Assembly (NCBI RefSeq): GCF_002742265.1
Contig: NZ_MDGL01000179.1
Span: 62,001 to 126,000, forward strand
DNA length: 64,000 nucleotides
DNA from: Maribacter sp. 4G9
GTDB taxonomy: Bacteria > Bacteroidota > Bacteroidia > Flavobacteriales > Flavobacteriaceae
Direction of reading: 5' to 3'
Shown here: positions 54,104-64,000 of the stretch, one piece after another
How the letters are laid out: each line of letters starts with the position of its first letter
Numbering within the stretch: position 1 is the first letter of the stretch
Program-made: the position numbers and the translations under genes
The notes under the pieces: generated by a model
The model's input: only the letters and a program-made list of their open reading frames with translations
What the model was told of the DNA's origin: nothing
The model's database searches: none

Positions 54104-54607
54104 ATGGAAACGCCGTGCCAAAAAATTCTGGAGAAAATGTTTTTGGAACATTACCATGAATGGTGTTTAAAGTCCTTTAGTTATGTGGAAAATATGGATG
54201 ATGCCCAGGACGTTGTTCAGAACATTTTTGTAAAACTCCTTCAAAAGGGAAATGTAACCTATATAGGGGATGTGAATAAATACCTAAACGTAGCCATTAA
54301 GAATGAAAGCTTAAAAAAGATTAAAAGGAATAAAAGAACTTTTGAACTTTATAATCAGTTGACGGAGGTACCTTCCTGTGAAAATGAGTTTATCAAAAGT
54401 GAAATTTCTGAAAATATGTTGAGGGAACTGGAAGCTTTGCCAGACCAAAATAAGCGGGTATTTACCTTGTGTGTTTTGGAAGGTGTGAAGTATGAAAGTG
54501 CAGCCGAAATTATGGGAATAACGGTGAACACGGTAAAATATCATCTAAAAAAATCCTTTAAAACATTGCGTTTAAATTTAAAGGATGTGTATTTATGGTT
54601 CCTTTAA
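54104..54607 (+). CDS. ECF RNA polymerase sigma factor of a FecR/SusC locus
   Basis: A 167-residue extracytoplasmic-function sigma factor. Region 2 (MDDAQDVVQNIFVKLLQKG, with a helix ending in YLNVAIKNESLKKIKRNK) and region 4 (LPDQNKRVFTLCVLEGVKYE, then ITVNTVKYHLKKSFKTLR) are clear. In Bacteroidota such factors are held by the FecR-type anti-sigma encoded next and released when the N-terminal STN domain of the SusC transporter signals substrate. It therefore should drive transcription of fecR-susC-susD and the enzymes that follow. Confidence 0.93.
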   Translation: METPCQKILEKMFLEHYHEWCLKSFSYVENMDDAQDVVQNIFVKLLQKGNVTYIGDVNKYLNVAIKNESLKKIKRNKRTFELYNQLTEVPSCENEFIKSEISENMLRELEALPDQNKRVFTLCVLEGVKYESAAEIMGITVNTVKYHLKKSFKTLRLNLKDVYLWFL

Positions 54608-54684: not shown

Positions 54685-54705
54685 TAGACAATGTTGTTTT
54701 GTCTA
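54685..54705 (+). promoter_or_regulatory. Palindrome overlapping the candidate fecR start
   Basis: TAGACAA (54685-54691), loop TGTTGTT, TTGTCTA (54699-54705). The right arm contains the TTG that would start the longest FecR frame (54699-54701), so it could hide the start codon in a stem or be an operator in the leader. Confidence 0.45.
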
Positions 54706-55916
54706 TTAAAATAATAGGATTGATAGCAGAGATTATAGTTAAAAAAATAAAAGGTCGGTTAAACCCGGAAGAAGAACTTCATTTTCAGAATTGGCTTTCC
54801 GAGAGTGATGAAAATTATTTGACCTTCCAAAGACTTCAGAAGTTGTACGAGCTCAATGTGCCCATACCCAATATTGAGCAATTGGATGCACAAAAAGCGT
54901 GGCAACTACTTATTCAAGCACAAACTAGGCAACGAAAGGGTACTATTAAATTTTCAAGCAGGAATCTTTTAAGATATGCTGCCATTTTCATTGGAATATT
55001 CGGTTGCTTTTTGGCCTATAGATCTTTTGAAAGCAAGCCTGTTATAGATGGGTCAATAGACCCTAATGCAATTACACTGGATTTAGGAAACGGAAAAATC
55101 CAGGTGCTTACAAAAGAGGGTACTTTAAATATAGTAAACGGTGAAGGAGAAGTTTTAGGGAAGAAAGTAGATGGTTTGGTAGACTACTCAAAATCGCAAG
55201 CCAATGATGAGAATGAGAATTGGCAACAATATAATACCTTGCGCATACCCCATGGCAAGACCTTCAAAGTGGTCCTTTCGGACGGTACGATAGTACACTT
55301 AAATGCTGGCTCTTCCTTAAAATATCCCGTAAAATTTCACAAAGAAAAAAATAGGGAAGTCGTTCTAATAGGCGAGGGTTTTTTTGAGGTCACCAAGAAC
55401 GAAAGCAGTCCATTTATAGTTACTTCTGGAGGTGTAGATGTAAGGGTACTGGGAACCAAATTCAATGTTACCTCTTATCCAGAGGATGATCGCCAAAACA
55501 CGGTTTTGGTTGAAGGTTCCGTTCGACTTTACCAAACAGGCTCCGCATATAATGAGGAAAATTCTACCCTGCTTTCGCCAGGCTATAAGGCGGAATGGAA
55601 TCCAGATGTAAAAGAAATGCGATTGCAACAGGTGTCCACTGAATTGTATACAGGTTGGATAAACGGTAAACTGATGATGAAGGAAATGGTCTTTGCAAAT
55701 ATCGTAAAAAGACTTGAACGTCATTACAATGTCACTATTACCAGTGATTACCAAGAATTGAACACCAGGGTTTTTACCGCCACATTCGAGAAGGAATCCA
55801 TTGAGGAAGTTTTGGAAACCTTCAAACTGGAAACACCCTTTGATTATGAAATCGAAGGAAATCACATTCTTATAAAAAAACAACCTAAAACCGATAAGCC
55901 TATGGGTAAAGTTTGA
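54699..55916 (+). CDS. FecR-family anti-sigma factor
   Basis: A 405-residue single-span transmembrane regulator. N-terminal cytoplasmic helices bind the sigma factor (about 1-85, with EEELHFQNWLSESDENYLTF), one membrane helix follows (about 89-108, LLRYAAIFIGIFGCFLAYRS), then a periplasmic FecR domain (RIPHGKTFKVVLSDGTIVHL ... GGVDVRVLGTKFNVTSYPED) and a C-terminal DUF4974 domain (MVFANIVKRLERHYNVTITS). There is no in-frame ATG near the start: candidates are TTG at 54699 or TTG at 54720 (giving MIAEIIVKKIKG). The choice is open. The stop overlaps the first possible susC start (TTGA). Confidence 0.9.
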   Translation: MSIKIIGLIAEIIVKKIKGRLNPEEELHFQNWLSESDENYLTFQRLQKLYELNVPIPNIEQLDAQKAWQLLIQAQTRQRKGTIKFSSRNLLRYAAIFIGIFGCFLAYRSFESKPVIDGSIDPNAITLDLGNGKIQVLTKEGTLNIVNGEGEVLGKKVDGLVDYSKSQANDENENWQQYNTLRIPHGKTFKVVLSDGTIVHLNAGSSLKYPVKFHKEKNREVVLIGEGFFEVTKNESSPFIVTSGGVDVRVLGTKFNVTSYPEDDRQNTVLVEGSVRLYQTGSAYNEENSTLLSPGYKAEWNPDVKEMRLQQVSTELYTGWINGKLMMKEMVFANIVKRLERHYNVTITSDYQELNTRVFTATFEKESIEEVLETFKLETPFDYEIEGNHILIKKQPKTDKPMGKV

Positions 55917-55990
55917 AAAATTCAATCAACAGAACCTACTCAATTCTGCATGACAGAACAACTGAATCAATTAATAATCAACAATATGAT

Positions 55991-57931
55991 ATGAAAACTA
56001 ACGAACTTTTTGGGTCATTTCGATCCAGTAGCATGAAGATTGGTTTAAGAACCAAATTATGTACGCTTTTTTTTATTACCGCATTTATATCTGGTCAGGC
56101 CAGCACCTTATCCCAAAAAACCAAGATGACCATCAATTTGGAAAATGTACCTACTTACAGGGTAATGGAAGAAATTGAGGCAACTACCGAATACAAGTTT
56201 CTCTATGATGTCAATAAAGTGGACACTTCGAGAATGGTCACCATTAAAGTAAGGGATATGGCACTCGACAACACACTTGAAGTGCTTTTCAAAAATGCCA
56301 ATATTGACTTTATATTTAGTGGCAATCAAATAGTATTAAAGCCAAAACCGATACAAATCGATACGCTCAAGGTCAATGCTGAAAAGTCCAAATTTGATCT
56401 AACCTCTGTTCAAGAAAGTGTATCCGGAAGTGTAAAAGATAGTAACGGTCAACCTATCCCAGGGGTTTCAGTAGTGGAAAAGGGAACTTCAAATGGAGTT
56501 GCAACCGATTTTGATGGAAATTATAGTTTAACTCTGACGCAGCCCGATGCCGTTCTGGTTTTTAGTTCACTGGGATTTTCTAAAAAGGAATTACCAGTTG
56601 GACAATCCAATATATTGAACGTTACATTGGAGGAAGATGCTGAAAATTTGGATGAGGTGGTGGTAACTGCACTTGGAATTAAACAAGAAACAAAAAAATT
56701 AGGTTATGCGATCGCCCAGGTTGATGCGGACGAGGTTAATGTGAATCGTACTTCTAACTTTATGAACACGCTGCAAGGTAAGGTGGCCGGGGTAAATGTT
56801 TCATCACTTAGTACGGGTCCAGGTGGTTCCTCAAAGGTGAGAATAAGAGGCCAGTCCTCCATATCCGGTACTAACAATCCATTGATTGTCGTGAACGGCG
56901 TGCCTATAGATAATACAAGTTTTGGCACCAGCCCTGGAAGTACAAGTTCTGAAGTTGGGACTAACAGTGGAGGTGTATTTTCTGATGGAGGTGATGGTTT
57001 TTCAAGTATTAACCCAGACGATATAGAGAGTATGACCATTTTAAAAGGTGCTACTGGCGCTGCCCTATATGGCTCGAGGGCTAAAGATGGCGTCATAATG
57101 ATTACCACAAAATCCAGGGGAATTCGTCAAGGTATCGGCGTAACCTATAATTTAAACATGACAAACCATACGGCCTTGGATTTTACAGATTATCAATACG
57201 AGTACGGCCAAGGAGAGAATGGGATACGTCCTACCTCAGCCAATCCTACCTCCGGCCAATGGTCCTTTGGAGAGCGGTTTCAACCTGGTTTGACTCAAGT
57301 ATTATTTGATGGTGTTGAGGTTCCCTACGTGCCTGTCTACGACAGAATCGATAAATTTTATAGGGCCGGTACTGATATTACCCATTCTGTTTCCATTTCT
57401 GGAGGAGCTGAAAACGGAGGTTTTAACCTTTCTTTATCCAATCTGGGAAGTGAAGGTATAACTCCCAATAATGAATTCAATAGAAAAACCGTCAATTTTG
57501 GTGCTAACTACGATTTATCCGAGAGAGCGAGTATTGAGGCCCATGTAAATTATTCTTATGAGAAAAATGTAAATCCGCCAAATGTTGGGCAACAGGATAA
57601 TACCATTCCCGTATCTCTTTTTAATCTTGCTAACTCCATGCCTTTGGATTTATTGGAAGAAAAAAAGTTTAACGATGAAGGAAACGAATTTGTATATAGC
57701 AGGTTTAGAAATAGGACAAATCCATATTTTACACTTTCTGAACAATTCAACGAAATAAGAAGGGATAGAATTTTTGGGAATGTTGCTGCCAGATATGAAA
57801 TTCTTTCGTGGTTAACAGGTCAGATTAGGGTTGGACAGGATTACTGGTCAAGATCACAGGAGTTCAATGGCTTCCCAACGGGGCAGGCATCACGTCAGGC
57901 TGCTCCAGAACCCTTTTTTAATGGAACTTAA
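55991..57931 (+). CDS. SusC/RagA TonB-linked outer-membrane transporter, N-terminal part (ends at premature TAA)
   Basis: First part of a SusC-type transporter. The frame is open from a TTG at 55913, but ATG at 55991 (MKTNELFG) is the likelier start, with a signal peptide ending near GQAST. Domains: STN signalling domain (MTINLENVPTYRVMEEIEAT), which would contact FecR; carboxypeptidase-regulatory-like domain (VSGSVKDSNGQPIPGVSVVE); TonB plug (NTLQGKVAGVNVSSLS ... MTILKGATGAALYGSRAKDG); then early barrel strands. It stops at TAA (57929-57931) within the barrel, after APEPFFNGT. The same frame continues without any shift for 524 more codons. Confidence 0.92.
   Translation: MKTNELFGSFRSSSMKIGLRTKLCTLFFITAFISGQASTLSQKTKMTINLENVPTYRVMEEIEATTEYKFLYDVNKVDTSRMVTIKVRDMALDNTLEVLFKNANIDFIFSGNQIVLKPKPIQIDTLKVNAEKSKFDLTSVQESVSGSVKDSNGQPIPGVSVVEKGTSNGVATDFDGNYSLTLTQPDAVLVFSSLGFSKKELPVGQSNILNVTLEEDAENLDEVVVTALGIKQETKKLGYAIAQVDADEVNVNRTSNFMNTLQGKVAGVNVSSLSTGPGGSSKVRIRGQSSISGTNNPLIVVNGVPIDNTSFGTSPGSTSSEVGTNSGGVFSDGGDGFSSINPDDIESMTILKGATGAALYGSRAKDGVIMITTKSRGIRQGIGVTYNLNMTNHTALDFTDYQYEYGQGENGIRPTSANPTSGQWSFGERFQPGLTQVLFDGVEVPYVPVYDRIDKFYRAGTDITHSVSISGGAENGGFNLSLSNLGSEGITPNNEFNRKTVNFGANYDLSERASIEAHVNYSYEKNVNPPNVGQQDNTIPVSLFNLANSMPLDLLEEKKFNDEGNEFVYSRFRNRTNPYFTLSEQFNEIRRDRIFGNVAARYEILSWLTGQIRVGQDYWSRSQEFNGFPTGQASRQAAPEPFFNGT
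57929..57931 (+). other. In-frame premature stop codon in susC
   Basis: TAA between FFNGT and TQTARRYRETNVDF in one uninterrupted reading frame. Barrel strands at this point in SusC proteins usually carry an aromatic residue (Gly-Ser/Thr-Tyr), so a TAT or TAC (Tyr) to TAA substitution is the simplest explanation. Confidence 0.9.
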
Positions 57932-59503
57932 ACGCAAACGGCAAGAAGATATAGGGAAACAAATGTGGATTTCTTGTTCTCTGGAGATTTGGACATCACA
58001 GAGGATTTAGGTCTGGGATTCACTGTAGGAGGAAACCAATTAAGAAGAAGACAGGAGTTAAATCGTGTAGATGTAACGGATTTTGTAATCAGGGATTTGT
58101 ACACTGTACAGAACGGAAGGGTAAAGAACCCTATTTATTTCCTATCGGAACGAGGAATCAACTCTTTATACGGAGCTGTTGATTTATCTTATAAGGACAC
58201 CTACTTCTTAAGTGCCACAGCGAGAAACGATTGGTTTTCTACCTTATCCGAAGAAAATAGAAGTATACTATACCCTTCTGTCTCCGGTAGCTTTGTCTTT
58301 TCAAATTTATTGGAGGAATCAGCCCCATGGTTAACATTTGGAAAGTTAAGGGCGGCATATGCTGAAGTAGGCAGCGACACGGACGTACCTCCATACTCAG
58401 ATGTTCTATTCTACAACATAAATGCTAATTTCTTTCCCGGCCCGGATGGTTCTCCTAATCCTGTTGCAGGTGCAAATACATCCGTATTGCCTAATCCAAA
58501 TCTTCGCCCCATGAGAGTTAAGGAATCTGAAATAGGTTTGGATATAAGGATGTTCGATAATAGAGTAGGGATTGATCTTGCGGTATACAGAAAGACTACC
58601 CTTGATCAGATAATTCCTGCTCAGATATCCAATACTTCTGGATTTGTAAGTCAGTTGATAAATAGCGGCGAAAGTAGAAGTGATGGTGTAGAGATGATGT
58701 TGAACCTAGTTCCCATTAAGAAAGAGAACTTGCGTTGGGACCTTAATTTGAATGCTTCATACAATAAGACCAAAGTCATTAGTTTGTTAACGGAGGAAGA
58801 AGGAGAAAGTATCCTTGTTGGTAACCATATATTTAATGGTTTTCTTTATCAGGTAGTTGGTGAGGAGATAGGCCAGTTGGCTGGTTTTGGTTATAAATTT
58901 GATGATCAAGGAAGACAGGTTTTCGCTGATGATGGGAGACCTCTTAGGTCTGATGAAATAAAGTTCTATGGTAGCGCTCTTCCAAATTGGATAGGTGGTA
59001 TTACAAATAGTTTAAAGTATAAGGATTTCAACTTCTCCTTTCTCATAGATTTTAATCTAGGAGGCAAGATGATATCCGGCACCAATTTTAATGCGGTAAG
59101 ACATGGGCTTCATAAAATGACACTTCCTGGAAGGGAAACAGGTGTTGTAGGAGTGGGAGTTAATCAAGCAGGTGCACCTAATACAGTGGCCACGGAATCA
59201 CAAACCTATTGGGAAGTTGTCCGTTCCCAGCAATTGATAGAGCCCATTGTGTACAATTCCGGCTTTTGGAAATTGAGGCAGATTACTTTAGGATATAATT
59301 TCCAAAAACTGTTGCCTGAAGATTCTTTTGTAAAAGGTTTGTCTTTAAATTTTGTTGCCAACAATGTTGCAATATTGAAAAAATGGGTTCCAAATATTGA
59401 CCCGGATTCTTTTGCTTTTAGTTCGGATAATGTGGCTGGTCTAGAATCTACAGGGGTACCCACTACTAGAAGCATGGGATTCAATTTAAACGTAAAATTT
59501 TAA
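57932..59503 (+). CDS. SusC/RagA TonB-linked outer-membrane transporter, C-terminal part
   Basis: Continuation of the SusC barrel in the same frame. Without the TAA the protein would be about 1170 residues from 55991, normal for SusC. The segment holds the typical barrel sequence LYGAVDLSYKDTYFLSATAR, TFGKLRAAYAEVGSDTD, the family region NLRPMRVKESEIGLDIRMFD and a C-terminal strand ending in Phe (SMGFNLNVKF), the outer-membrane insertion signal. The first internal start is a GTG at 57965, but a fragment without signal peptide could not reach the outer membrane. Likely inactive unless the stop is read through or is an error. Confidence 0.9.
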   Translation, partial: TQTARRYRETNVDFLFSGDLDITEDLGLGFTVGGNQLRRRQELNRVDVTDFVIRDLYTVQNGRVKNPIYFLSERGINSLYGAVDLSYKDTYFLSATARNDWFSTLSEENRSILYPSVSGSFVFSNLLEESAPWLTFGKLRAAYAEVGSDTDVPPYSDVLFYNINANFFPGPDGSPNPVAGANTSVLPNPNLRPMRVKESEIGLDIRMFDNRVGIDLAVYRKTTLDQIIPAQISNTSGFVSQLINSGESRSDGVEMMLNLVPIKKENLRWDLNLNASYNKTKVISLLTEEEGESILVGNHIFNGFLYQVVGEEIGQLAGFGYKFDDQGRQVFADDGRPLRSDEIKFYGSALPNWIGGITNSLKYKDFNFSFLIDFNLGGKMISGTNFNAVRHGLHKMTLPGRETGVVGVGVNQAGAPNTVATESQTYWEVVRSQQLIEPIVYNSGFWKLRQITLGYNFQKLLPEDSFVKGLSLNFVANNVAILKKWVPNIDPDSFAFSSDNVAGLESTGVPTTRSMGFNLNVKF

Positions 59504-59515
59504 ATTTAAGACATC

Positions 59516-61051
59516 ATGAAAAATATACATAAATATTGTTTTGCATTGACTTTGGTCCTATTGAACTTGTCATGCGAGGAGAATTTTGAGGAATTAAATA
59601 CCAATATAGTAGATCCCACAAGTGAAAGTGTCGATCCTGTCTATTTGTTGAACAATGCTATAATTGGTTTGTCATTTCCAAGTGGTACCAATATCTATTA
59701 TGATGAGGCCATTGTACAGCAAATTGTAACACCCAACTCAGGTTTTGTAGCTGGTGCCAATTATAATCAGGATAACAGGAATAATACCGGGAATTTATGG
59801 GACGCTTATTATCCAAATGTTATAAAACACACGGGAGATATCTTATTTCAGCTAAATGATGGGGAATCCAATAGAACCAACCTTGTTCAGATGGCCCGTA
59901 TTTTGAATGCTTATGCATTTATGGTATTAACGGATGAATATGGTGAAATACCTTATTTTGAAGCAGGCAAAGGTCTTTCTGAGCAAATTGTTCTACCAAG
60001 GTATGATCCTCAAGAGGAAATTTATCCGGACCTAATAAATGAACTTGTAGAAGCACGTGATGCCCTTAGCGATGCAGCTCCTGCAGAGAACGGGGAAGCA
60101 CTTTATGCCGGTGACCTTGGTAAATGGAGGAAATTGGCTAATTCATTATTAGTAAGAATAGGAATGAGGCTGTCGAATGTAAATCCCTCCCTTGCGGCAC
60201 AAACTGTACAAAATGGTTTTGCAGGTGGGGTGATGGAGTCTAACGAAGATAACTTCGTTGTTAGACACAATAACAATTTTGTCAATCCATACAGTTTTAC
60301 CTTTAACGCTACCGAAGCGAACAACTTTTATTTGGTGGATACCTTTGTGGACTATTTATTTGATAATAATGACCCAAGATTGGAATCTTTGGCAATCAGG
60401 TATGTGGGGGCGTCCTCTGGACCAGAGCAACAATTAGGTATTGCCTCCAAAAATCCAGATGATCAGATTGGGATGCCCATGGGCTATGACAACAGTACCA
60501 TAGGTACTGTTGTATCTAATCTTGGATTAGCAAGCTTCTATGATTTCACCCAATTAGACCGATTTACATGGGGAGCCCAAAGTGCACCTATGTTCCTTTG
60601 TACATATGCTCAAACACAATTATTGCTTGCTGAGGCTGCCATTAATGGTTGGGTAACCGGCGATCCTGCTGAATTTTATTCAAGTGGAATACGGGGGCAT
60701 TTGGATCAGATAGCAGCATACGGAGCAGATGTTGCCATTGCACAGGAGGATATAGACACTTTCGTTAGTGCAAATCCTTTGGATTTAGGAAATGCCGTTG
60801 AAGAAATTAATACTCAATACTGGGTTGCTTCATTTTTGAACGGTCCAGAATTGTTTGCCAACTTTAGGAGGTCTGGTTTTCCCAATTTAACACCAAATCC
60901 GTATCCTGCTCAGGATATCACTGGTGACTTTATCAATAGATTAACCTACCCTACGGCAGAAATAGCTGTCAACCAAGGAAATCTACAACAGGCTGTTTCT
61001 AGAATGGGACCGGATAATTTGGACACCAAGGTATGGTGGGACGTGGACTAA
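59516..61051 (+). CDS. SusD/RagB-family outer-membrane lipoprotein
   Basis: Surface glycan- or nutrient-binding lid of the SusCD complex. The 511-residue protein has a lipobox (LLNLSC, Cys19) and SusD-type helical TPR core with motifs such as ILNAYAFMVLTDEYGEIPYF, LGKWRKLANSLLVRIGMRLS and TYAQTQLLLAEAAINGW. It belongs to the SusD-like subgroup annotated SusD/RagB or DUF-type nutrient-binding (the EENFEELNTN start is typical). It starts 12 bp after susC ends. Confidence 0.93.
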   Translation: MKNIHKYCFALTLVLLNLSCEENFEELNTNIVDPTSESVDPVYLLNNAIIGLSFPSGTNIYYDEAIVQQIVTPNSGFVAGANYNQDNRNNTGNLWDAYYPNVIKHTGDILFQLNDGESNRTNLVQMARILNAYAFMVLTDEYGEIPYFEAGKGLSEQIVLPRYDPQEEIYPDLINELVEARDALSDAAPAENGEALYAGDLGKWRKLANSLLVRIGMRLSNVNPSLAAQTVQNGFAGGVMESNEDNFVVRHNNNFVNPYSFTFNATEANNFYLVDTFVDYLFDNNDPRLESLAIRYVGASSGPEQQLGIASKNPDDQIGMPMGYDNSTIGTVVSNLGLASFYDFTQLDRFTWGAQSAPMFLCTYAQTQLLLAEAAINGWVTGDPAEFYSSGIRGHLDQIAAYGADVAIAQEDIDTFVSANPLDLGNAVEEINTQYWVASFLNGPELFANFRRSGFPNLTPNPYPAQDITGDFINRLTYPTAEIAVNQGNLQQAVSRMGPDNLDTKVWWDVD

Positions 61052-61080: not shown

Positions 61081-62580
61081 ATGAAATCAGTGCTAAAGCA
61101 AATTATAGAGAGGAACAAACTGGATGAAAAGAAGCTTTTTCGATCTAGAAAAGCTGAACTTGAAAATTCCAGTACTACGGACGAGAGAAGAAACTTCTTA
61201 AAAAAAACGGCCTTGGGAGGAATAGCCATGACCGGGATGATGGGCCTAGCTATCGAGGATACCATCGCTCAAACAACCTCTAAGGTAAGCCGAATGTCCG
61301 CTCCTTCCGAGCTCAAGATAACCGACATGCGATATGCCTTGACCAATGTTATGGGCGGTACCGCTATTATCAAAATAGAGACCAATCAAGGTATCTATGG
61401 GCTTGGAGAGGTTAGGGATGCGGCTGATGTACGCTATGCGCTTTTCCTTAAGAGTAGGATTTTAGGTAAAAACCCTTGTAATGTTGAAAAGATATTTAAG
61501 AGTATAAAGCAGTTTGGCGGACCTGCAAGACAGGCAGGTGGGGTCTGTGCTGTTGAAATGGCACTCTGGGATATTTGTGGTAAGGCCTATAACGTTCCCG
61601 CTTGGCAATTGCTTGGTGGAAGATATAGGGACAAGGTTAGGTTATATGCAGATACACCCGAAGCATCCTCACCAGAGGAGCAAAAACGATTGATCGATTT
61701 TAGGGTGAATGAACAAGGGTATACATGGCTGAAAATGGACGTCTCCATAGGGGAGCTTAAAGGTAAGCCCGGCACCGTTGTGAACGGTAAATTCTGGGAA
61801 AATGATAAGGGTGTTTTGGCACAGTGGGGAGATCGTAGAAATATGATGTCCTACGGAAATACCATGCACCCGTTCACACAGATCCAGATTACAGAAAAGG
61901 GTTTGGAAGAGCTGCAACAGGTAGTTGAGGATGTACGGAATATGGTGGGCTATGAAATTCCCATTTCCACGGACCATTATGGCCATTTTGATTTGAACAA
62001 TGGAATCCGTTTGGCCAAGGCCTTGGATAAGTATAGATTGGCCTGGTTTGAGGATATGGTGCCGTGGCAGTACAATGAGCAATGGAGAACCATAACCGAT
62101 GCTATTGAGACTCCTACCACAACTGGTGAGGATATCTATTTGTTAAAGGACTTTTTGCCGCTGATACATAATAGGGCCGTGGACATAATCCATCCAGATT
62201 TGGCATCTTCCGGAGGGCTCTTGGAAACTAAAAGAATTGCGGACTATGCAGAGGAATATGGAATAGCCATGGCCATGCATCAGGCAGGTACGCCCGTTTC
62301 GTTCATGGCCAATGTGCATTGTGCCGCCGCTACCCAAAACTTTTTGGCATTGGAGCACCATTCCGTAGATGTTCCTTGGTGGGAAAGTCTCGTAAAGACG
62401 GTGGGAGGTTTTAAAATGATCGATAAAGGCTTTGCCACCGTACCGTTGACCGCGCCTGGTTTGGGAATCGAGTTGGATGAAGAAGTGGTCAAGGCCCATT
62501 TACATCCTTCGGATAAGACGTTCTTTAAATCTACCGATGAATGGAACGAATTGAGGTCACACGATAGAACGTATAGCTAA
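61081..62580 (+). CDS. Tat-exported enolase-superfamily enzyme (mandelate racemase/acid-sugar dehydratase type)
   Basis: A 499-residue protein with a twin-arginine signal: ERRNFLKK (Arg36-Arg37) followed by a Gly/Ala/Met-rich hydrophobic stretch and cleavage near TIAQ, so it should be exported folded with its metal. The mature part has the MR/MLE capping domain and a TIM barrel: Lys218 (LKMDV), metal ligands Asp298 (STDHYGHF), Glu324 (WFEDMV) and Glu350 (TGEDIY), Asp373 (IHPDLASSGG) and catalytic His400 (AMAMHQAG). This fits a dehydratase of aldonic or uronic acids giving a 2-keto-3-deoxy acid. Substrate unknown. It is 29 bp after susD. Confidence 0.88.
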   Translation: MKSVLKQIIERNKLDEKKLFRSRKAELENSSTTDERRNFLKKTALGGIAMTGMMGLAIEDTIAQTTSKVSRMSAPSELKITDMRYALTNVMGGTAIIKIETNQGIYGLGEVRDAADVRYALFLKSRILGKNPCNVEKIFKSIKQFGGPARQAGGVCAVEMALWDICGKAYNVPAWQLLGGRYRDKVRLYADTPEASSPEEQKRLIDFRVNEQGYTWLKMDVSIGELKGKPGTVVNGKFWENDKGVLAQWGDRRNMMSYGNTMHPFTQIQITEKGLEELQQVVEDVRNMVGYEIPISTDHYGHFDLNNGIRLAKALDKYRLAWFEDMVPWQYNEQWRTITDAIETPTTTGEDIYLLKDFLPLIHNRAVDIIHPDLASSGGLLETKRIADYAEEYGIAMAMHQAGTPVSFMANVHCAAATQNFLALEHHSVDVPWWESLVKTVGGFKMIDKGFATVPLTAPGLGIELDEEVVKAHLHPSDKTFFKSTDEWNELRSHDRTYS

Positions 62581-62666
62581 TAGGGGGAGTAAATGTCGAA
62601 AAATAAAGTATAGACGTATACTATGCGCTTTAAAATTTAGAATTTGAGTTAGTTTAAGTTGAGCAG

Positions 62667-62696
62667 GAGAACGCTTCCTCTTATGGAAGGGTTCTC
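62667..62696 (+). other. 12-bp hairpin between the dehydratase-like and RraA-like genes
   Basis: GAGAACGCTTCC (62667-62678), loop TCTTAT, GGAAGGGTTCTC (62685-62696), one mismatch. There is no T run, so it resembles a processing or stability element within the operon mRNA rather than a terminator. Confidence 0.55.
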
Positions 62697-62763
62697 AGCT
62701 TGCTTTCGGCAATATCTAAATTTTATCTATAATTTAATAGGGAAAACTTTAAATACAGAGAAA

Positions 62764-63702
62764 ATGAAAAATTTTAAAATCATAATGGTCCTATGTTGTT
62801 TTACATACCATTTCCAAAGCAATGCCCAAGGAGTAACAGGCTCCGTAGAATATATCAAGGAACTGACTTCCCAGTGGAAAGGTGAACGCTTTGACGATGG
62901 AAGGCCCAAGGTGTCCGATGCCCTACTAAAGCGCATGAAAAACATTCAGATTGAGGAGGCTTGGGGCTATCTGCGAAGTAAGGGTTACAACAACCAATAT
63001 GAAGGGGAATGGGAAATGATACATCCTGAGGGTGTAATGACGGGAAGAGTGGTAACTGCTCAATATATGCCGCTACGACCGGATTATCAAAAGCTAGTAA
63101 AATTAAAAGGCGCTGAGGAAAACAGGGATACGATAGGTGGTAGTAATTCATGGCCCATCCAACAGTTGGTTCCCGGAGATGTTTATGTTGCCGATGGATA
63201 TGGCAGAATCATAGATGGTACGCTCATAGGTTCCAATTTGGGAAATGCCATTTATGCCAATTCCCAAAACGGGGTCATCTTTGATGGTGGCGTTAGGGAC
63301 GTCGCCGGGCTATTGGAAATTGAAGGTTTCAATGGATGGCATAAGGGGGCGGATCCATCCTACCTGCAAGAGGAAATGTTGACGGCCATCAATGTGCCTA
63401 TACGAATAGGGAGGGCAACAGTTTTGCCGGGCGATGTGGTCTTGGCCAACAGGCATGGAACGGTGTTCATACCTTCCCATTTAGCTTCGGAATTGGTGCT
63501 TTCCTCTGAAATTGTTGGGCTCAGAGATTTATTTGGATTTCAAAGATTACGTGAAAAGAAATATACCGCGGGCCAAATCGATACACGTTGGACCGATGAA
63601 ATCAATGCCGATTTTGAAAATTGGTTAAAATCCTACCCGGATAGTAAATTGCCAATGACCCGTAAAGAACTTAATGATTATCTGGCCTCTAGAAAAAATT
63701 AA
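62764..63702 (+). CDS. Exported RraA-family (aldolase-like) protein
   Basis: A 312-residue protein with a Sec signal peptide (MKNFKIIMVLCCFTYHFQSN, cleavage near AQG); the ATG at 62764 is preferred to one at 62659, which would bury the signal. The RraA/HMG-CHA aldolase fold is seen in VPGDVYVADGYG, LIGSNLGNAIYANSQNG and VIFDGGVRDVAGL, with Arg178-Asp179. In class II pyruvate aldolases of this family an acidic residue normally follows two positions after RD; here it is Gly182, so aldolase activity is uncertain. True RraA inhibits RNase E in the cytoplasm, impossible for an exported protein. Likely acts on the product of the adjacent dehydratase-like enzyme. Confidence 0.85.
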   Translation: MKNFKIIMVLCCFTYHFQSNAQGVTGSVEYIKELTSQWKGERFDDGRPKVSDALLKRMKNIQIEEAWGYLRSKGYNNQYEGEWEMIHPEGVMTGRVVTAQYMPLRPDYQKLVKLKGAEENRDTIGGSNSWPIQQLVPGDVYVADGYGRIIDGTLIGSNLGNAIYANSQNGVIFDGGVRDVAGLLEIEGFNGWHKGADPSYLQEEMLTAINVPIRIGRATVLPGDVVLANRHGTVFIPSHLASELVLSSEIVGLRDLFGFQRLREKKYTAGQIDTRWTDEINADFENWLKSYPDSKLPMTRKELNDYLASRKN

Positions 63703-63720
63703 CCATCAAAACCATTTAAA

Positions 63721-64000
63721 ATGAACGATCAGAAATCCATTAAGCTACCTAATATAATAAGAACATCAGCGTTGTTTGCCCTGCTCGGTATTTTTTGTTT
63801 TTCGTCTTTGTCGGCACAAAGCGATGCCAAAAAGGTCGCAAAAATAGGGGAAACCGTCACGGCGCTCTACAAGGCAATGGTGGATAAGGATAAAAGCCTA
63901 TTGGAAGAATTGACATTGGATAAACTAACCTATGGTCATTCTAGCGGTACCATAGAGAATAAGGACCAATATGTTGATGGTGTACTCAACGGGGCATTTC
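63721..64000 (+). CDS. Exported NTF2-like (DUF4440/SnoaL-like) protein, 3' end outside window
   Basis: The first 93 codons are visible. ATG at 63721, a signal peptide (hydrophobic core about residues 16-29, cleavage near SLSAQ), then a helix and the DUF4440 pattern (TALYKAMVDKDKSLLEELTL, LTYGHSSGTIENKDQYVDG). NTF2-like folds host diverse isomerases, dehydratases and binding proteins. It follows the RraA-like gene by 18 bp, so it belongs to the same operon. Confidence 0.8.
   Translation, partial: MNDQKSIKLPNIIRTSALFALLGIFCFSSLSAQSDAKKVAKIGETVTALYKAMVDKDKSLLEELTLDKLTYGHSSGTIENKDQYVDGVLNGAF

Follow-up and report, generated by a model that had tools for sequence, protein, structure and literature searches.

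Conserved MR/MLE and RraA-type proteins with export signals at a SusCD locus of Maribacter suggest sugar-acid breakdown partly outside the inner membrane

We analysed a 64,000-nucleotide stretch of the genome of Maribacter sp. 4G9 (contig NZ_MDGL01000179.1, positions 62,001 to 126,000; G000:C178:62001-126000 in our numbering; hereafter the window), near the end of which a SusC/SusD pair is followed by genes encoding an MR/MLE enolase-superfamily protein (MR1), an RraA-fold protein (RraA1) and an NTF2-like protein. The locus runs on for 4.4 kb past the window, to the contig end at 130437, and this part adds a BASS/PanS-like transporter and further enzymes with export signals, namely a second MR/MLE protein (MR2) and a second RraA protein (RraA2), as well as a truncated pyrroloquinoline quinone (PQQ)-dehydrogenase gene. 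Judged by their sequences, MR1, RraA1, the NTF2-like protein, MR2 and RraA2 carry export signals of the twin-arginine translocation (Tat) or Sec type. This conserved set of apparently exported enzymes, often found beside an outer-membrane sugar importer, suggests that some steps in the breakdown of sugar acids have been relocated beyond the inner membrane. Most likely, the exported enzymes convert a sugar acid to a 2-keto-3-deoxy acid; the aldol step that an earlier note on the window had placed after this is uncertain, and it may instead be KdgK and KdgA in the cytoplasm that take over the keto-deoxy acid, once imported.

Export signals and linkage of MR1 and RraA

The usual relatives of MR/MLE and RraA-type enzymes work inside the cell. 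MR1 begins with 35 residues followed by RRNFLKK, the N-terminus of MR2 is MKNSRRSFISK, and RraA1, RraA2 and the NTF2-like protein have Sec-type starts, which bears out the export signals first noticed on the three window genes. The twin-arginine motif was present in 80 of 82 aligned MR1 rows, the remaining two being gapped at the site, and in all 14 rows of a distant MR1 set (51-58% identity), five further rows of which came from loci cut before the N-terminus. With a home-made signal test, 79/79 RraA1, 20/23 RraA2 and 44/44 NTF2 orthologs passed as Sec-type, and 79/82 MR1 and 23/24 MR2 rows as Tat-type. None of the KdgK (0/16), KdgA (0/14) or sigma factor (0/17) controls passed. When any start was allowed, 12/20 UxuB-type short-chain dehydrogenases/reductases, 5/8 FGGY kinases and 10/38 FecR rows did so, and the test is therefore rough. 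The genome encodes TatC. Two other MR/MLE proteins found in it with MR1 as query (on contigs C63 and C189) start at the domain and are signal-free, while its only two RraA-family matches are both in the operon and both have signal-like starts.

To follow the genes across genomes, contigs were scanned with MR1 alone, and the best 80 of 138 relatives, which read as Bacteroidota, were kept together with this genome, giving 81 loci. The six closest named loci by MR1 alone are labelled Allomuricauda or Maribacter (91-95% identity). Genes from a home-made open reading frame (ORF) caller were labelled by their best BLAST match (E 1e-6); no identity cut was applied, so a few labels are distant (one MR2 at 30%, eight PQQ dehydrogenases at 26-32%). 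A run was allowed gaps of up to 350 bases and small opposite-strand ORFs were skipped; runs at contig ends are shortened, and no MR1 row came from locus L117, where the caller had picked ORFs on the opposite strand. RraA was present in the MR1 run in 74 of the 81 loci and adjoined MR1 in 73, followed in frequency by BASS (52), NTF2 (43), SusD (38), MR2 (25) and RraA2 (19). The earlier note had proposed to look for the trio of MR1, RraA and NTF2 in other genomes, with unlinked homologs counting against its reading. The trio is complete in 40 runs (31 with SusD as well); MR1 and RraA came through this check, and linkage to NTF2 held in only about half of the loci.

Since the 80 loci were best matches, evenly drawn genome samples were also taken, which overlap these loci in part (e.g., G112 with L051 and G022 with L037). 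MR1 was found in 10/199 genomes of the family (E ≤1e-180) and 11/296 genomes of the phylum (E ≤1e-150), the Maribacter genome being counted in both. An RraA1-like gene (E ≤1e-60 and ≤1e-50, respectively) lay within 5 kb of MR1 in 9/10 and 11/11 of these genomes, the exception being G022. In the pairs worked out, 33-328 bases separate MR1 from RraA; the gap is 2.8 kb in G305 and G478, where a second MR1 copy adjoins RraA. RraA1-like genes occur apart from MR1 too, as 18/199 and 18/296 genomes hold one. The 81-locus runs and the evenly drawn samples together rule out chance linkage, and the association of MR1 with RraA across the phylum is firm.

Active sites and the reactions they allow

The earlier note had pictured a dehydration followed by aldol cleavage, both in the periplasm. 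If MR/MLE dehydration and RraA retro-aldol cleavage both took place there, the BASS transporter would import pyruvate, an arrangement we consider rather unlikely. The RraA1 model (predicted local distance difference test, pLDDT, 84.8) has the RraA fold and matches 3k4i, 5x15 and the HMG/CHA aldolase 3noj. Mazurkewich reportedly described in 2014 two class II aldolase motifs, D-X20-R-D or G-X20-R-D-X2-E/D. An RraA homolog that has either of two motifs is considered a likely aldolase in PMC5065237. The Arg-Asp pair of the motif is intact throughout the RraA rows counted (rows of at least 220 residues, or at least 200 in the distant set), and Asp stands 21 residues before the Arg in all 21 RraA2 rows, in 6/7 RraA2-type rows of the distant set, in 19/79 RraA1 rows and in 11 of 25 distant RraA1-type rows (of the other 14, 11 have Ser, two Gly and one Ala), all of which favours aldol cleavage. 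However, RraA1, the partner in most runs, has Ser at this site in 58 of the 79 rows and Ala in two, and KdgK and KdgA lie in the operon of some genomes. The RraA1 of the window has neither motif, with Ser in the first and Gly at the final position of the second; Ser together with the Glu of the second motif occurs in 12/79 rows. A division of labour, in which RraA1 would lose its Asp only beside RraA2, was rejected, as Ser occurs in 38 loci without an RraA2 row and in 12 with one, and Asp in 10 and 8, respectively (five loci with two RraA1 rows were counted apart). Aldol cleavage by RraA1 is therefore doubtful on sequence grounds; since RraA2 keeps the motif, the reaction could still occur in the periplasm. 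Separately, RraA1 matches in both sequence and fold PDB entry 5ir2, an RraA-fold structure deposited as a "novel cellulase" from gut microbes.

The MR/MLE enzyme of the window had been credited with complete catalytic residues, which proved true in part. MR1 has both MR/MLE Pfam domains and the three metal carboxylates of the enolase superfamily. The ligands D298, E324 and E350, together with K218, D373 and H400, are invariant in a 17-row alignment, so the His-Asp dyad of acid-sugar dehydratases of the GalD/ManD type (D373-H400) is kept. In the motif D298-H299-Y300-G301-H302, D, H, G and H are invariant, and position 300 is Tyr, Phe, Trp or Thr, the last three in distant rows (three rows below 40% identity were set apart); at the equivalent position, 5/5 aligned PDB relatives have His. 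A His two residues past the metal Asp is presumably the acid catalyst in galactonate and mannonate dehydratases. MR1 has Tyr300 in its place, and MR2 keeps the His, with DMHGRYD in 24/24 rows. By these residues it is the second pair, MR2 and RraA2 beyond the window, and not the window pair, that looks like the textbook enzymes. A recent tandem duplication of MR1 and MR2 was ruled out by a 133-row tree in which the two groups (97 and 29 rows) split at support 100; the tree was made by a quick method, left 7 rows ungrouped and had several long branches flagged.

An acid His is expected where water leaves in a dehydration. MR1 might instead be a cycloisomerase or lyase with a lactone or an anhydro-sugar acid as its substrate, which would still give a 2-keto-3-deoxy acid; the missing His favours this, and Lys218, His400 and the three metal ligands are the set reported for AtGCI and DauB, both cycloisomerases (PMC5698469). 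We regard it as unlikely, however, as MR1 also has Asp373 of the dyad, and DauB (5olc) and AtGCI (4ggb) come well below its best structural matches. The MR1 sequence matched 2qq6 at 3.8e-55 among MR/MLE structures, and 2qq6 was also the top match of its model (pLDDT 79.9), with gluconate dehydratase 3tw9 and mannonate dehydratase 2qjn lower.

Another possibility is that the substrate is an aldarate and that RraA is a dehydratase/decarboxylase like FlDet, giving alpha-ketoglutaric semialdehyde. FlDet of Flavobacterium is an RraA-family enzyme that acts on 2-keto-3-deoxyglucarate, in a group of 63-80% identity, and shows that this family can act on a 2-keto-3-deoxy acid (PMC8563752). Moreover, some loci, L009 and L010 among them, have beside them an opposite-strand gene for an aldehyde dehydrogenase with 2,5-dioxovalerate dehydrogenase as its best NCBIfam match, although it scores far below the cut-off (128.7 of 750 bits). 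FlDet shares the RraA fold with RraA1 and the HMG/CHA aldolase (the latter also its active-site Arg-Asp), but it has 237 residues and a sequenced, signal-free N-terminus, and 2-keto-3-deoxyglucarate was the sole tested keto acid it accepted; most RraA1 rows differ from the aldolase in lacking its Asp (PMC8563752; PMC5065237). This makes an FlDet-like reaction distinctly improbable here. That ordinary cytoplasmic enzymes have had their N-termini misread is very improbable: the signal test is rough, but the twin-arginine motif recurs in close and distant MR1 rows and all five enzymes have signal-like starts.

Neighbouring genes and the locus in Maribacter

The genes around MR1 in other genomes point to sugar acids, as judged by their sequence matches. 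KdgK is in 15 of the 81 runs, PQQ dehydrogenase in 14 (8 of them the distant matches mentioned above) and KdgA in 13. KdgK and KdgA lie downstream of BASS in several Flavobacteriaceae loci; the one KdgA scored was above the NCBIfam cut-off (378 vs 275 bits), and the one KdgK scored was placed through related models only, below cut-off. In this genome both are at C148, in what we read from translations only as a UxaA/B/C-type cluster. In L009-L013 a PQQ gene (with full PQQ-cytochrome domains shown for L009) is followed by a gene for a bicupin protein. In L120, from the phylum sample, the order is KdgK, SGL lactonase, PQQ-cytochrome dehydrogenase, MR1, BASS, MR1, RraA and two UxuA-like proteins, both with twin-arginine starts; similar twin-arginine proteins of this mannonate dehydratase family occur in L019, L020, L034 (three), L061 and L077, with up to three in succession, and at L070 on the opposite strand. 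The BASS protein has an SBF domain, with the ketopantoate transporter PanS as its best score (235 bits vs a cut-off of 400). Three of the 29 BASS-free runs (L072, L077 and L081) have a TIGR00893 galactonate-type major facilitator superfamily (MFS) protein, which scored 266 and 277 bits in L072 and L081 against a cut-off of 395 and was assigned in L077 by clustering only. Eight of the 81 runs, which read as Chitinophagaceae or close to them, combine an AraC-like regulator with a gluconokinase-like FGGY protein (452 vs 648 bits). A protein behind NTF2 in L073 that had been taken for a transporter is a ketoacyl synthase. Near MR1 in two loci (L114:7296-8675 and L121:9971-11365), we also noted members of the N-acylglucosamine/cellobiose 2-epimerase family whose N-termini are lipoprotein-like.

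The features of the Maribacter locus are given in Table 1. The order SusC, SusD, MR/MLE, RraA-like and NTF2-like, as first read from the window, agrees with the ORFs, Pfam matches and genome sequence.

Table 1. Features of the Maribacter sp. 4G9 locus (window scale; positions above 64000 lie beyond the window)
Feature	Position	Strand	Remarks
ECF (extracytoplasmic function) sigma factor, FecI-like	54104..54607	+	Pfam Sigma70_r4_2; NCBIfam Sig70_bacteroi1 below cut-off; label in 18/81 runs
FecR-type anti-sigma factor	54699..55916	+	Pfam FecR, FecR_C
SusC with STN domain, in-frame stop at 57929-57931	55913..59503	+	ORFs 55913-57931 and 57965-59503, same frame
SusD-like lipoprotein	59516..61051	+	Pfam SusD-like_2, E 8.4e-77
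MR1, Tat-type MR/MLE enolase-superfamily protein	61081..62580	+	Pfam MR_MLE_N, MR_MLE_C
RraA1, Sec-type RraA-fold protein	62764..63702 (best start ATG 62764)	+	Pfam RraA-like, E 1.7e-18
NTF2-like (DUF4440/SnoaL-like) protein, Sec-type	63721..64000 in window; ends 64188	+	155 residues in full
BASS transporter	64200-65306	+	SBF domain
MR2, second Tat-type MR/MLE protein	65345-66625	+	
RraA2, second Sec-type RraA protein	66653-67588	+	
PQQ-dehydrogenase fragment	67673-68239	+	

The intergenic gaps from SusD onward are 29, 183, 18, 11, 38, 27 and 84 bases, and this spacing alone fits a single operon. No Pfam family matched the piece of the NTF2-like protein inside the window; its ortholog in L009 matched PF14534 (E 1.2e-18). 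The SusC/SusD pair by which a polysaccharide utilization locus is recognised is present, with SusC interrupted. No glycoside hydrolase had been seen before the window ends, and the general scans from 54.1 kb to the contig end, run without a carbohydrate-active enzyme library, recognised none either; a 40-residue fragment at the contig end matched no family.

The susC copies of the relatives L009 and L013 are intact, and the stop in Maribacter sp. 4G9 may be a real lesion or an assembly error. The PQQ-dehydrogenase gene (L007:14673-15437; 67673-68437 on the window scale) loses homology past about 140 residues, and a search of the rest of the genome for its missing 3' part found only a 43% paralog on C7. 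The contig end recurs on C180 at 97% identity, as might be expected of a mobile element.

In two other Maribacter loci (L012 and L014), SusC and SusD are 45-46% and 35-36% identical to those of strain 4G9, whereas MR1 is 91-93% and MR2 98-99% identical; sigma factor and FecR are at 69-80%, and the remaining genes, except NTF2, at least at 88%. Divergence of SusC and SusD beside near-identical enzymes suggests that the importer cassette has been exchanged while the enzymes stayed, so one monomer may come in different carriers.

A proposed sugar-acid pathway

Taking the substrate from the gene neighbours, we infer the following reactions and direction of transport. The compound taken up through SusCD would be a sugar acid, or else a lactone or glycoside derived from a sugar acid, and would be converted in the periplasm by the exported MR/MLE enzymes to a 2-keto-3-deoxy acid, on which, or on a variant of which, the RraA proteins would act. 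The BASS/PanS-like carrier, or the galactonate-type MFS protein in a few other genomes, would then move the keto acid over the inner membrane, and KdgK and KdgA would complete its breakdown in the cytoplasm. The acid could itself be made from an aldose, by a PQQ dehydrogenase that some relatives have, joined in the phylum sample by an exported lactonase, and the oxidative upper half of an Entner-Doudoroff-type route would then sit outside the inner membrane. What stays constant between genomes is an MR/MLE and an RraA protein, both apparently exported, often together with a carrier for organic acids; the genes that vary could provide sugar acids or complete their breakdown. The scheme is weakest in the roles it gives to RraA1 and NTF2.

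Several observations weigh against this proposal. SusD is missing from 43/81 runs, and KdgK or KdgA, PQQ dehydrogenase and MFS are each in a minority of them; most RraA1 rows have lost the aldolase Asp; MR1 is without the acid His, and all its NCBIfam dehydratase matches are far under the cut-off. Moreover, strain 4G9 may carry a partly damaged copy of the locus, in view of the stop in SusC and the truncation of the PQQ gene, and may suit tests poorly. The periplasmic route of dehydration and aldol cleavage put forward at first thus survives in its export signals, its MR1-RraA linkage and its sugar-acid neighbours, and is weakened by the active sites, the incomplete linkage to NTF2 and the presence of KdgK and KdgA in some runs, which suggests cleavage in the cytoplasm after import. 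On balance, we give about an even chance to the reading as a whole, that is, a catabolic operon of TonB/ECF-sigma type with an exported MR/MLE step on a sugar acid, import of the keto acid and a cytoplasmic finish.

In Pseudomonas, oxidation is by a PQQ enzyme, and dehydration, unlike the one proposed here, is cytoplasmic and follows import. Its periplasmic glucose oxidation and gluconate uptake (PMC11772102) are alike in that a sugar is oxidised in the periplasm and the acid then imported. Closer is a flavobacterial gluconate route in Zobellia, where ZGAL_587-589 encode a laminarin-induced periplasmic gluconolactonase, the gluconate importer GntT1 and the galactonate dehydratase DgoD (PMC5613140); like the proposed route, it combines an exported lactonase with an acid carrier in the inner membrane and a dehydratase for sugar acids, but that dehydratase is annotated as cytoplasmic, whereas MR1 has a Tat-type N-terminus and is linked to RraA and, often, SusCD. 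In the DauA-DauD carrageenan pathway of Zobellia, the enolase-superfamily cycloisomerase DauB likewise leads to a 2-keto-3-deoxy acid, followed by a kinase and an aldolase; an exported enolase-superfamily enzyme or RraA is not described in the available part of that paper (PMC5698469). The available parts of PMC9795676 and PMC8857213 have nothing on export, and a search limited to partial texts of open-licence papers found no description of exported MR/MLE or RraA proteins with SusCD, nor of an MR/MLE-RraA pair with export signals.

A wider version is possible, although we think it more doubtful: several Bacteroidota families may run the whole upper, Entner-Doudoroff-like half of sugar-acid metabolism in the periplasm, with PQQ oxidation, lactone opening, dehydration by Tat-exported MR/MLE and UxuA-like enzymes and an exported RraA, so that only a 2-keto-3-deoxy acid or its fragments would cross the inner membrane; the enolase-superfamily enzymes would be of a subgroup with a changed active site. 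If the proposed route is true, a phylum known for degrading polymers would carry out central sugar-acid chemistry outside the inner membrane, and SusCD loci in which no glycoside hydrolase is recognised would have to be read differently. A branch of the enolase superfamily that is highly conserved would also be assigned a function. Exported RraA proteins, with relatives described as RNase regulators, aldolases or a dehydratase, would gain a directly testable metabolic partner.

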